Assembly: GCA_025927765.1 (NCBI GenBank)
Contig: JAICKU010000030.1
Coordinates: forward strand, 1 to 39,551
Direction of reading: 5' to 3'
Length of the DNA stretch: 39,551 bases
Origin: Burkholderiales bacterium
GTDB taxonomy: Bacteria > Pseudomonadota > Gammaproteobacteria > Burkholderiales > Casimicrobiaceae
Both the position numbers and the translations under genes were made by a program. Within the stretch, counting starts at the first letter, position 1, and each line of letters opens with the position of its first letter. This document shows positions 9,531-13,500 of this stretch, in pieces. Below the pieces are notes generated by a model. That model made no database searches. It saw only the letters and a program-made list of their open reading frames with translations, and had not been told where the DNA came from.

Positions 9531-12500
9531 CATGCCTCCTTGCGCCCGGCGGGCGCGCCATAACCGCCGCCGCCCGGCGTCTCGACGACGAACACGTCGC
9601 CGGCATGCATGTCGACTTCGAACGTCGCGTCGTATTCCTCGCGCGTACCGTCGGCGCGCTCGACCCAGTTGCGTCCCTTCGCGCCGGGCTCGCCACCCGC
9701 GACACCGAACGGCGCGATGCGCCGATGGTTCGCGAGCATCACCGCGGTCATCGGTTCGAGGAAGCGCACGCGGCGAATGGCGCCATCGCCGCCGCGATGC
9801 GTACCCGCACCGCCGCTGCCTTCGCGAATCGAGAACGCGTCGAGGCGCACGGGAAAGCGCCACTCGAGCACTTCGGGATCGGTCAGGCGTGAATTGGTCA
9901 TGTGCGTCTGCACGACGCTCGTGCCGTCGAAGTCGGGGCCTGCGCCGGAGCCGCCCGCGATCGTCTCGTAATACTGGTAGCGATCGTTGCCGAACGTAAA
10001 GTTGTTCATCGTGCCCTGCGATGCCGCGAGCACGCCGAGCGCGCCGTACAGCGTATCGGTGATCGCCTGCGACGTCTCGACGTTGCCGGCGACGACCGCC
10101 GCCGGATAACGCGGCGCGAGCATCGAGCCTTCGGGAATCACGATCGACAGCGGCGCGAGGCAGCCGTCGTTCATCGGGATGTCGTCGTCGACGAGCGTGC
10201 GGAAGACGTAGAGCACCGCCGCCTTGCACACGGCGGATGGCGCGTTGAAATTCGTCGGCTGCTGCGGGCTCGTTCCGGTGAAGTCGATCGTCGCCGAGCG
10301 CGACGCGCGATCGACGCTGATCTTCACGCGGATCACCGCCCCGCTGTCCATCTCGTATTCGAACGCCCCGTCGGATAGCGCGCCCACCACGCGCCGCACC
10401 GCCTCCTCCGCGTTGTCGCGCACGTGCTTCATGTATGCCTGCACGACAGTCAGGCCGAAGTGCTCGACCATCTTGTGCAACTCCTCCGCCCCCTTCGCGC
10501 ACGCCGCGACCTGCGCGCGCAGGTCCGCCAGGTTCTGCTCGACGTTGCGCGCAGGGTAGCGCCCCGACGTGAGCGTCTTGCGCATGTCGTCTTCGAGGAA
10601 GCGCCCTTCGAGCACGAGCGGCACGCCGTCGAGCAGCACGCCCTCCTCGTCGACCTCGGTCGAATCGGGCGGCATCGAACCGGGCGTCGTGCCGCCGATG
10701 TCGGCGTGATGGCCGCGCGAGGCCACGTAGAACTGCGGAGGCGAGGGTCGAGGGGCGAGGGATGAGCGTTCCTGGTCGCGCCGCTGCGGCGAAGCCCCAC
10801 TCGTCGCTCGCCCCTCCTCCCTCGCCCCGTCATCGTGAACAAACACCGGCGCAATCACCGTCACATCCGGCAGATGCGTACCGCCGTTGTACGGCGCATT
10901 GAGCACGTACACGTCGCCTTCGTTCATCCGGCCGCGATAGCGATCGATCACCGTCTTCACGCTCTCGCCCATCGAGCCCAGGTGCACGGGCATGTGCGGC
11001 GCGTTGGCGATGAGATTGCCCGTGGCGTCGAAGATCGCGCACGAGAAATCGAGCCGCTCCTTGATGTTCACCGAGTACGACGTGTTCGCGAGCGTCACGC
11101 CCATCTGCTCGGCGATCGCCATGAACAGGTTGTTGAAGACTTCGAGCATCACGGGATCGGCGGTCGTTCCGATCGCATGCGCACGGCGAATGGGCGTGAC
11201 GCGCTCGAGCACGAGGTGGTCGCGCTCGGTGAGTGTGGCGCGCCAGCCCGGCTCGATCACCGTGGTCGCGTTCTGCTCGCGCAGGATCGCGGGCCCGTCG
11301 ATCCGATCGCGCGGTCGCAGGTCCTCGCGCGCGTACACGGGCGCCTCGTACCATGCGCGTCCGGTGAAAAGCGACCGGCGCTTGATCGGCGCGAGATCGC
11401 CTGCACGCGCCTCGAATGCACGGCGCTCGTCGCCGATGTCGTGCGACGAGCCGATCGCCTCCACCGCGATCGCCTCGATCACGAGCGCCTTGCCCGGCAT
11501 CAGGAAGCCGTACTGGCGGCGATAGCGTCGCTCGAACTCGGCGACGACGTCGTGCTCGTCCCTGGCCATCGGCACGCCGAGCGTGGTGTCGGTGCCCTCG
11601 TACTTGAGCTGCAGCGTGCGCTCGCAACGAATGCGAGAAGTGGCGACGCCCTGCGCCGCCACCTCGGCGCTACCCTCGTGCGAGAGCTCCGCGAACGCGG
11701 CCCGCGTTGCGTCGAGCGATGCCTGCGACAGTCGCGCTTCGATGGCGCGTTGCCGCAGCGCGCGCACGTCGGCGAGCCCCATGCCGTACGCGGAGAGGAC
11801 GCCTGCCAACGGATGAATGAACACGCGCGTCATGCCGAGCGCGTCGGCGACGCGGCACGCGTGCTGGCCGCCCGCCCCGCCGAACGAGCACAGCGTGTAC
11901 GCGGTGACGTCGTAGCCGCGCTGCACCGAGATGTGCTTGATCGCGTTCGCCATGTTCTCGACGGCGATGTCGAGAAATCCGTCGGCGACCTCTTCCGGCG
12001 TGCGCACGTGACCCGTCGCCGCGGCGATCTCCTGCGCGAGCGCGGCGAATTTCTCGCGCACGATCGCATCGTCGAGCGGCGCGTCGCCGTTCGGCCCGAA
12101 CACCTTCGGAAAGAGATCGGGATCGAGCTTGCCGACCATCACGTTGCAGTCGGTCACGGTGAGCGGGCCGCCGCGCCGATAACTCGCGGGACCGGGATTC
12201 GCGCCGGCCGATTGCGGTCCCACGCGAAAGCGCGCGCCGTCGAACGTGCAGATCGAGCCGCCGCCCGCCGCGACCGTGTGGATGCTCATCATGGGCGCGC
12301 GCAGGCGTACACCCGCCACTTCGGTCACGAACGCGCGCTCGTATTCGCCGGCCCAGTGGGTCACGTCGGTCGACGTGCCTCCCATGTCGAAGCCGATGAT
12401 GCGATCGAAGCCGGCAAGCCGCGACACCTCGACCGCGCCGACGATGCCACCCGCAGGACCCGACAGGATCGCGTCCTTGCCCTGGAAGCGGTGCGCATCG

Positions 12501-13327
12501 GTGAGGCCGCCGGAGGATTGCATGAATTGCAGGCGGAAACCGCGCGCCCCGGGATCGGGGATCGGGGACCGGCGATCGGGGGCAGCGTGGTGCCGCGAAG
12601 CGTCGTCGCGATGTTCGCGATCCCCGATCGCAAATCCCCTATCCCCGTTCAGGTCCCTCTCCACCTCATTCACATATCGCCGCAGGATGGGCGACAAATA
12701 CGCATCGACGACGGTCGTGTCGCCGCGCGAGACGAGCTTCATCAGCGGGCTCGCCTCGTGCGACACCGACACCTGCGGGAAACCGATCGTGCGCGCGAGA
12801 TCGGCGATCGCGCGCTCGTGCTGCGGATAGCGATAGCCGTGCATCAGCACGACGGCCACGGCGCGAATGCCGTCGTCGTAGGCCCGGCGCAACTGCGGCT
12901 CGAGCGCTGCGAGGTCGAGCGCCCGGACGAGTTCGCCATGCGCGCCGAGGCGCTCGTCGGCCTCGATCACGCGCTCGTAGAGCTGCGCCGGCCGCTCGAT
13001 GCGGCGCACGAACAGTTTCGGGCGATTCTGGTAGGCGATGCGAAGCGCATCGGCGAAGCCGCGCGTGATGACGAGCGCCGTGCGCTCGCCGGTACGTTCG
13101 AGCAGCGCGTTCGTTGCGACCGTCGTGCCCATCTTGATCGCCTCGACCGCCTCCCCGGGAATCGCGGCGCCGGGCGGCAACTCCAGCAGTTCACGAATGC
13201 CATGCACCGCTGCATCGCGGTAGCGCTCGGGGTTGTCGGAGAGGAGCTTGTGCGTGACGAGCGTGCCGTTGTCGTGGCGGGCGACGATGTCGGTGAAGGT
13301 GCCGCCGCGGTCGATCCAGAATTGCAT
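9530..13327 (-). CDS. 5-oxoprolinase/hydantoinase, fused HyuA-HyuB type, with two in-frame repeat insertions
   Basis: A 1265-residue cytoplasmic ATP-dependent amidohydrolase opening 5-oxoproline or a hydantoin-like ring. Residues 1-~690 are the HyuA half: [32 protein letters not shown], the phosphate-binding [13 protein letters not shown] and [19 protein letters not shown]. Residues ~720-1265 are the HyuB half: [54 protein letters not shown] and [18 protein letters not shown]. Length exceeds the usual ~1200 by about 65. The surplus sits in two non-conserved tracts, one before [12 protein letters not shown] and one before FYVASRGHH, encoded by inverted heptad-repeat elements at 12551-12645 and 10740-10826. 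Reading frame and flanking motifs are intact, so the enzyme may still work. ATG 13327 has no good ribosome-binding site. Confidence 0.93.
10740..10826. repeat. heptad-arm inverted element E1 inside hydantoinase gene
   Basis: The left arm (10740-10766) holds GCGAGGG, TCGAGGG, GCGAGGG in tandem; the right arm (10800-10826) is its reverse complement at 23 of 27 positions. The centre is 33 bases. It encodes a Glu/Arg/Ser/Pro-rich tract absent from the conserved motifs on either side. Confidence 0.75.
12551..12645. repeat. heptad-arm inverted element E2 inside hydantoinase gene
   Basis: The left arm (12551-12578) is four heptamers GGGATCG, GGGATCG, GGGACCG, GCGATCG; the right arm (12618-12645) is CGATCCC, CGATCGC, AAATCCC, CTATCCC. 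The centre is 39 bases. In the protein it appears as a Asp/Arg/Pro-rich tract around [10 protein letters not shown]. Confidence 0.75.
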
Positions 13328-13336
13328 GGGAGTAAA

Positions 13337-13500
13337 GGATCAGTGATCAGGGATCGGAACCGCAACGCGCCGCGGCCGTGGGATTATAGAAAGTGGGCCG
13401 AAGCCCGGTCGCAACTGCGCGCCAGATGCGAGTAAGATGCTGCCCGCCAAGCGCACGATGCGAGGCGCCGCCCGATCCCTGATACCGATCCCCGATACCT
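13337..13500. repeat. heptad-arm inverted element E3 in divergent hydantoinase/dctP promoter region
   Basis: The left arm (13337-13357) is GGATCAG, TGATCAG, GGATCGG. The right arm (13472-13500) has GATCCCT, GATACC, GATCCCC, GATACCT in 6-7-base steps, opposite in sense. The 114-base centre carries the start-site region of both divergent genes. The right arm ends 3 bases before the dctP ATG and the left arm lies within the hydantoinase leader. Confidence 0.65.
13383..13414 (-). promoter_or_regulatory. candidate promoter for hydantoinase-alaX
   Basis: A perfect reverse-strand TATAAT (13388-13383). TTGCGA (13414-13409) is the nearest -35-like box, but 20 bases away. Transcription would start near 13376. 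A forward TAAGAT at 13433-13438 is a weaker candidate for dctP. Confidence 0.45.

Follow-up and report, generated by a model that had tools for sequence, protein, structure and literature searches.

Introduction

G-rich heptamers of the forms GGGNATC and GGGAATC have been studied in two Xanthomonas genomes and one Nostoc genome (Rehm et al. 2015, PMC4692102; this and the other reports cited are drawn on here for part of their text). These heptamers lie within 50 bp of the ends of open reading frames (ORFs), only a minority of the Xanthomonas ones being intragenic (11% and 7% in two genomes), and they form G-quadruplexes in vitro. In the present study we analyzed a stretch of 39,551 nucleotides from a bacterium of another lineage, a member of the Burkholderiales. 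In this stretch (the window; contig C11 of a 4.01-Mb genome in 148 contigs, 95.6% complete and 2.1% contaminated), a gene for a fused hydantoinase A/B of the 5-oxoprolinase type holds two elements, E1 and E2, each made of 7-base units arranged in two opposite arms; a third element, E3, lies in the spacer before its start codon. We consider it likely, with a probability of about 0.75, that dispersed heptad elements were inserted in two permissive loops of the hydantoinase and were kept since the frame stayed open.

Repeats of other kinds are also known within genes. Intragenic repetitive extragenic palindromes (REPs) are GTAG- or CGTC-tagged palindromes lying within ORFs that include DnaE2 and UvrD-type genes, and in two Xanthomonas recB genes a repeat occurs at nearly the same position (Di Nocera et al. 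2013, PMC3733652). The heptads described here are likewise short repeats inside ORFs; however, a REP is a palindrome of a single sequence that carries a tag at one end, whereas E1 and E2 are heptad arrays. Inspection by eye found no GTAG or CGTC end tag at E1 or E2, CGTC occurring only in the E2 centre. Palindromic elements of Rickettsia, ∼150 bp long, lie in frame in unrelated genes, form families with conserved peptides and are considered compatible with protein function (PMC10969869). E1 and E2 are in frame like these elements but, compared by eye, have neither DNA nor an encoded peptide in common with each other.

Two further systems resemble the locus in part. The TAACTGA heptanucleotide repeats of Beggiatoaceae stand directly before start codons, with few in ORFs, and the orientation that gives stops in all frames is confined to ORF ends (PMC4679880). 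The heptads of the genome studied here are likewise seven-base tandem units before start codons; the TAACTGA repeats differ in having one fixed unit, in being direct repeats with one inverted case and in their lineage. In Borg elements, ORFs contain tandem repeats that add disordered stretches to proteins, with a conserved hot spot (PMC9879509). Repeat DNA extends the protein at a hot spot here as well, but the Borg repeats are direct amino-acid repeats without inverted arms, on archaeal extrachromosomal elements.

In the part of PMC4692102 available we found no report of heptad pairs that lie in frame in two particular loops of a protein, or of such loops being filled by other repeat families. 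The main text of PMC3733652 contains no occurrence of heptamer, hydantoinase or oxoprolinase and we saw no heptad array reported there for UvrD or DnaE2 genes; a literature search with thin coverage of subscription journals returned no report of a hydantoinase heptad case. The heptad kind itself is already known; what is new is the presence of in-frame heptad pairs at landing loops shared across phyla.

E1 and E2 Are Inverted Heptad Elements within the Reading Frame

The hydantoinase gene (9530..13327, minus strand) encodes a protein of 1265 aa with the Pfam domains Hydant_A_N, Hydantoinase_A, Hydant_A_C and Hydantoinase_B. E1 (10740..10826, no strand assigned), with a unit of approximately GGGYGAG, consists of arms of 27 nt each (10740-10766 and 10800-10826) that are 85% complementary and flank a centre of 33 nt. 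It lies in frame within the HyuB part of the protein, at residues about 830-865, where the open loop measures 36 aa compared with 7-8 in homologues without the insert. E2 (12551..12650, no strand assigned), with the unit RGGNATC, has arms of 29 nt each (12553-12581 and 12622-12650), 83% complementary, around a centre of 40 nt; it lies in frame within the HyuA part, at residues about 227-265, and its open loop measures 39-40 aa compared with 4-5. The units are degenerate in both elements. Tandem Repeats Finder reported a period of 7 at 10740-10761, 12551-12581 and 13337-13355, the last of these within E3. An earlier note on this DNA had described E1 and E2 as in-frame inverted heptad insertions between conserved motifs, of shared design but different units, and the arms, the period and the enlarged loops bear this out, as do the units of E1 on the one hand and of E2 and E3 on the other. 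Its centres of 33 nt for E1 and 114 nt for E3 agree with ours; that of E2 is 40 nt and not 39.

To compare the period with chance, we scanned a sample of 437,945 bases from this one genome (the window and 398,394 further bases, with genes called by a simple script). Six runs scored at least 17/21 at lag 7; two were coding, namely E2 and a GC-rich run, and the other four were heptad arrays between genes. No such run was seen at lags 4, 5, 8, 10 or 11, lag 13 gave one (intergenic), and lag 14, which spans two units, gave two intergenic and one coding; the 7-10 runs at each of lags 6, 9, 12 and 15 were all coding, as expected from codon repeats. E1 is below this threshold and reaches 12/14, a level also met by five other coding runs. 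In an inverted-repeat census of the same bases at a complementarity of at least 85%, under which E2 falls with 83%, in-gene arms at least as long as the 27 nt of E1 occurred only in two palindromes of a DnaE2-type gene. These results indicate that the period-7 structure of E1, E2 and E3 is not chance. A reading in which only a G-tract recurs every 7 bases was dropped because the excess of GGG spacing was small between genes (3 at a period of 7 compared with 0-1 at other periods from 4 to 14) and absent from coding DNA (3 compared with 1-3).

The Two Loops Are Insertion Hot Spots

We aligned the query with 29 loci of relatives (some of them fragments) and 80 loci from a genome collection, the latter being the best 80 of at least 585 confirmed, which makes 110 sequences in all. 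Of these, 107 span the E2 site and 109 the E1 site. At least 8 extra residues were present at the E2 site in 22 of the 110 sequences and at the E1 site also in 22, with the query in both counts. The next internal site, at residue ∼1131, had inserts of 9-11 residues in 11 sequences, and no remaining internal site had at least 8 extra residues in more than three; the N-terminal end, where 32 sequences carried extra residues, was excluded as start-codon choice. The minimal loops are 5 residues at the E2 site and 8 at the E1 site, and among the best 80 far homologues the E2 loop was at most 6 aa in 55 and the E1 loop at most 9 aa in 66. Both loops were enlarged in 5 of these 80 and in 6 of 26 near sequences. 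The E1 and E2 loops are thus hot spots of insertion.

AlphaFold models of the two protein halves (mean pLDDT 83.6 and 86.7) place E2 in a loop between the helix 204-227 and the strand 265-269, with pLDDT below 50 at 230-261. E1 is placed in a loop at local residues 114-150, between the strands 106-113 and 151-158, with pLDDT of ∼50 at 121-140. Both inserts are missing from the alignment with the nearest solved relative, the N-methylhydantoinase 7hk5, and in two aligned solved relatives the match breaks off and restarts at the edges of the insert sites covered. Since the inserts take low-confidence loop positions in these models and solved relatives do without them, both sites look like tolerant loops.

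Unrelated Repeats Fill the Same Loops in Other Lineages

Among relatives, the loops hold GGGTCAG palindromes (L028, L030), GTGTCAGACAC repeats (L052), CTCTCCCC/GGGGAGAG-like hairpins (L025, L029, L031, L032), two GTCATTCCCGCG-type palindromes (L041) and others. Farther away we found (AAAATTC)n heptads together with octads in a cyanobacterium (L128), octads (L142) and palindromes (L133, L139, L156, L183). An independent inverted heptad pair with the unit CRGANGA occupies the E1 site in a metagenome-assembled genome (MAG) of the Xanthobacteraceae (L167); this family was not found in the parts of the heptamer literature available. Because unrelated repeat families occupy both loops in other lineages, the sites are not special to heptads, and the loops appear to be permissive sites on which repeats can land, while the repeats themselves do not look like useful parts for the enzyme.

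In all four genomes searched for their own filler, the filler was dispersed (the counts include the filler itself): 138 matches compared with 18 for the control in G015, 86 compared with 12 in G021, 173 compared with 0 in G031, and 41 compared with 1 for the L167 filler in the Xanthobacteraceae MAG. The G031 pattern was nearly absent from G000, G015, G021 and G017, with 0-2 matches. Counts of the GGGTCAG pattern (62 compared with 13 in G000, 93 with 16 in G001, 23 with 20 in G017 and 40 with 20 in G031) were left out as support because the fillers of these genomes are of other kinds.

Heptad Arrays Are Dispersed in the Host Genome and Its Relatives

Arrays of RGGNATC gave 31 matches in the host genome, and the reversed control gave none. 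With GGGATCGGGGATCG at no more than one mismatch, there were 23 matches, again with a reversed control of 0. By eye, three of the 23 (L005, L011, L014) resemble ordinary coding matches, L015 is ambiguous, L018 and E2 lie within genes, and most of the others adjoin a start or a stop codon, the units being C-rich ahead of the former and G-rich after the latter. In a weaker test of the 437,945 bases that took in several unit types, each of the six intergenic lag-7 arrays was centred 8-25 nt from the edge of a called gene. Orientation was convergent at six loci, divergent at one and same-strand at two, with 13 single arrays. A parse of loci chosen by the GGGATCG pattern (L001-L023) yielded 11 RGGNATC arrays with 44 units, seven arrays having 4 units, two having 3 and two having 5; positions 1 and 4 vary.

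E3 lies outside genes, in the spacer between the hydantoinase gene and a divergent gene for a DctP-type TRAP solute-binding protein (13504..14475, plus strand, Pfam PF03480). Its two RGGNATC arrays each end close to one ATG: the left (13337..13358) has its G-rich strand on the plus strand, near the hydantoinase ATG, and the right (13471..13500) has it on the minus strand, near the DctP ATG. They share a perfect 12-nt core (13346-13357 and 13472-13483) around a centre of 114 nt.

These arrays are like the heptamers of PMC4692102 in having about 4 units, in forming convergent inverted pairs, in lying near ORF ends and in following the strand rule. The units of E2 and E3, parsed as RGGNATC, retain the conserved G-tract and ATC of GGGNATC, and on this comparison of units the two elements belong to the published heptamer class. 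E2 is the intragenic exception among arrays that lie mostly at ORF ends. E1 was not assigned to the class because its unit differs, being approximately GGGYGAG and not RGGNATC; by eye, inverted pairs of E1-type units also lie between genes at C76 (L057) and C53 (L056).

The array pattern RGGNATCRGGNATCRGG was found in 27 of 61 genomes, 24 of them from the same family. By group, it was present in 16 of 22 genomes of the genus (the host included), in 8 of 15 from other genera of the family and in 3 of 24 from other families of the order. Three of the 61 genomes (G009, G024 and G059) gave matches with the reversed control, and the other 58 gave none. As a separate observation, this reversed pattern matched 145 places in G059 and 37 in G009, a chance hint of another heptad family there. 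A gene for a UvrD-type helicase carries an in-frame RGGGATC array in the host genome (L018, C114:25470-25490) and in G014 (L255), that is, in 2 of the 22 genus genomes, the other 20 being without it by eye.

Insertion into Tolerant Loops Is the Probable Origin of E1 and E2

We propose that E1 and E2 would be copies of dispersed heptad elements that in their own genome stand mostly at gene borders, inserted into two loops of the fused hydantoinase/5-oxoprolinase. Their retention would reflect room in the loops for about 30-35 additional residues, together with a total length that did not close the frame. In some other lineages the same two loops are filled by the resident repeats of each genome. 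E3 has the usual form, with G-rich strands that face each other and frame a spacer close to start codons. We infer insertion instead of growth in place, neutrality of both elements for the enzyme and purifying selection on the reading frame.

With regard to the remaining claims of the earlier note, the search that it proposed for further paired heptad arms did return others in this genome, and the same tracts with a conserved peptide were not encountered in the set of distant homologues searched, most of which keep minimal loops. The sites are open to unrelated repeats and are not special to heptads, and a single arm-making mechanism is not established by the mixed evidence on arm mirroring given below. 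Selection for a length divisible by three comes down to retention of the frame in a tolerant loop.

Several observations weigh against insertion of dispersed elements into tolerant loops. The nearest homologues are 79-81% identical, none being very close with an empty site, so that insertion as opposed to local growth is read indirectly. E1 and E2 have inverted arms, as have miniature inverted-repeat transposable elements, and by eye no target-site duplication was seen against uninserted, strongly diverged homologues. The E1-type unit is the rarer one and, at no more than two mismatches, is only mildly enriched (62 genome-wide matches compared with 21 for the control). Residues 96-113 of the HyuA model also have pLDDT below 50 and yet are no hot spot. 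In the archaeal homologues L147, L151 and L177 the fillers are acidic or lysine-rich runs of low-complexity type, and length-variable loops could gather such sequence without mobile DNA. Fold z scores against windows of the same gene averaged −1.05 in the near set (4 of 23 below −2) and +0.46 in the far set (n = 16). Finally, there is a weak hint of stop avoidance in E2: one arm is able to give TGA on the gene strand, and by eye the required A is present in 0 of its 4 units, the only ones relevant, compared with 48% of the 44 RGGNATC units of the genome.

The locus ties a little-studied published repeat class to an in-frame protein change, and two loops of a common enzyme family offer a natural assay that may record which small repeats moved in a genome.

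Array Units Vary between Species

In the Xanthobacteraceae MAG, examined through L194-L223 (30 of the 41 matches as loci, many overlapping) and L167, the dispersed CRGANGA heptads form 24 convergent pairs, 3 divergent pairs and 24 single arrays; among 46 arrays with 197 units, positions 2 and 5 vary most. Another genome, G036, has only 2 convergent pairs, with 29 single and 9 same-strand arrays. Over the 60 bases that end at the hydantoinase start, a score of at least 15/21 was reached at lag 7 by 4 of 24 sequences and at lags 4-6 or 8-12 by none; in the host genome these bases peaked at 14/21 at lag 7, equalled at lag 5. By eye, the unit before this start varies by species (CTGATCC, CTGATTC, CTGCCAA, CTGACTC, CYGACRC), so that an array can keep its period and position although its unit is altered. 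This raises a broader reading, which we consider less likely than not: heptad arrays may be one convergent class that shares only a 7-base period with a fixed polarity at ORF edges, with units that turn over between species even where the sites are orthologous, the hydantoinase loops serving as cross-phylum landing pads for the active repeats of each genome and the writer or mover being an undescribed activity. Were units indeed exchanged at fixed sites without slippage, the process that makes 7-base arrays would be testable by strain comparison.

Replication slippage of a short seed in length-tolerant loops, by which the arrays grew in place and nothing moved, has been proposed for heptamers (PMC4692102), and in G036, with arrays of 7 and 9 units, neighboring units resemble each other more than randomly drawn units do (0.75 compared with 0.555, sd 0.045). 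The Xanthobacteraceae MAG does not show this, its neighboring units (0.497, and 0.565 two units apart) being no closer to each other than to units from other arrays (0.523, sd 0.018); the host genome gave 0.500 compared with 0.454 (sd 0.054). Slippage does not produce two opposite arms, and it leaves the match of the four tested fillers to the dispersed pool of their genome unexplained; we regard it as unlikely for E1 and E2. Neither simple slippage nor a known transposase explains all of the heptad data.

Protein Feature, Nucleic Acid Structure and Assembly as Alternatives

The enlargement of the same two loops in many lineages, with both enlarged in some far and near sequences, is also what a selected, fast-evolving protein feature such as a docking or subunit contact loop would give. 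Such a role is improbable, in view of encoded peptides that look unrelated, the low pLDDT and the minimal loop kept by most of the best 80 far homologues.

Selection of E1 and E2 as RNA or DNA structures (hairpin or G-quadruplex) that tune gene expression accords with the strong stems predicted in their single-strand folds and with the in vitro quadruplexes cited above. The structure is not conserved in homologues, however, whose fillers at the two sites are unrelated or unstructured, and the fold z scores of the elements against windows of the same gene are modest (E2 −2.0, E1 −1.8). Evidence on the mirroring of the arms is mixed: a unit-order test gave a combined p of 0.005 in five hand-picked elements of the host genome and a weak p of 0.011 in 21 MAG elements, whereas in a partner-swap test the arms of 24 MAG elements paired no better with their own partner (0.479) than with others (0.510). 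We therefore consider a selected structure of this type very unlikely. A general hairpin rule for loop fillers was tried and found no support in the fold-energy tests, and because fold scores were only modestly better than in windows of the same gene, the term hairpin does not extend to all fillers. An assembly or binning artefact of this fragmented, slightly contaminated draft is scarcely credible: the gene reads through 1265 codons without interruption, repeats of this type recur at many loci and in sister genomes, and an unrelated MAG has a heptad pair at the identical codon position.

Other Repeats in the Host Genome

Further heptad units of approximately GGGRTGA and GGGCCAG lie beside gene ends at C63:92163 and C63:113159. 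The DnaE2-type polymerase gene (C99:54858-58469; L098:14858-18469) contains two in-frame GGGTCAG-type palindromes, with arms matching at 39/40 and 26/27, and a GHRGQ repeat run. Two Y1 transposase genes at C111:10015 and C111:23981 (L104, L105) resemble REP-associated tyrosine transposases (RAYTs). The flanks of both loci carry GGGTCAGA repeats and no heptads, so the REP/RAYT arrangement of a repeat flanking its transposase gene was not found for the heptads. Both genes are flanked by GGGTCAGAG repeats, and the transposases are possibly the mover of this second dispersed family.

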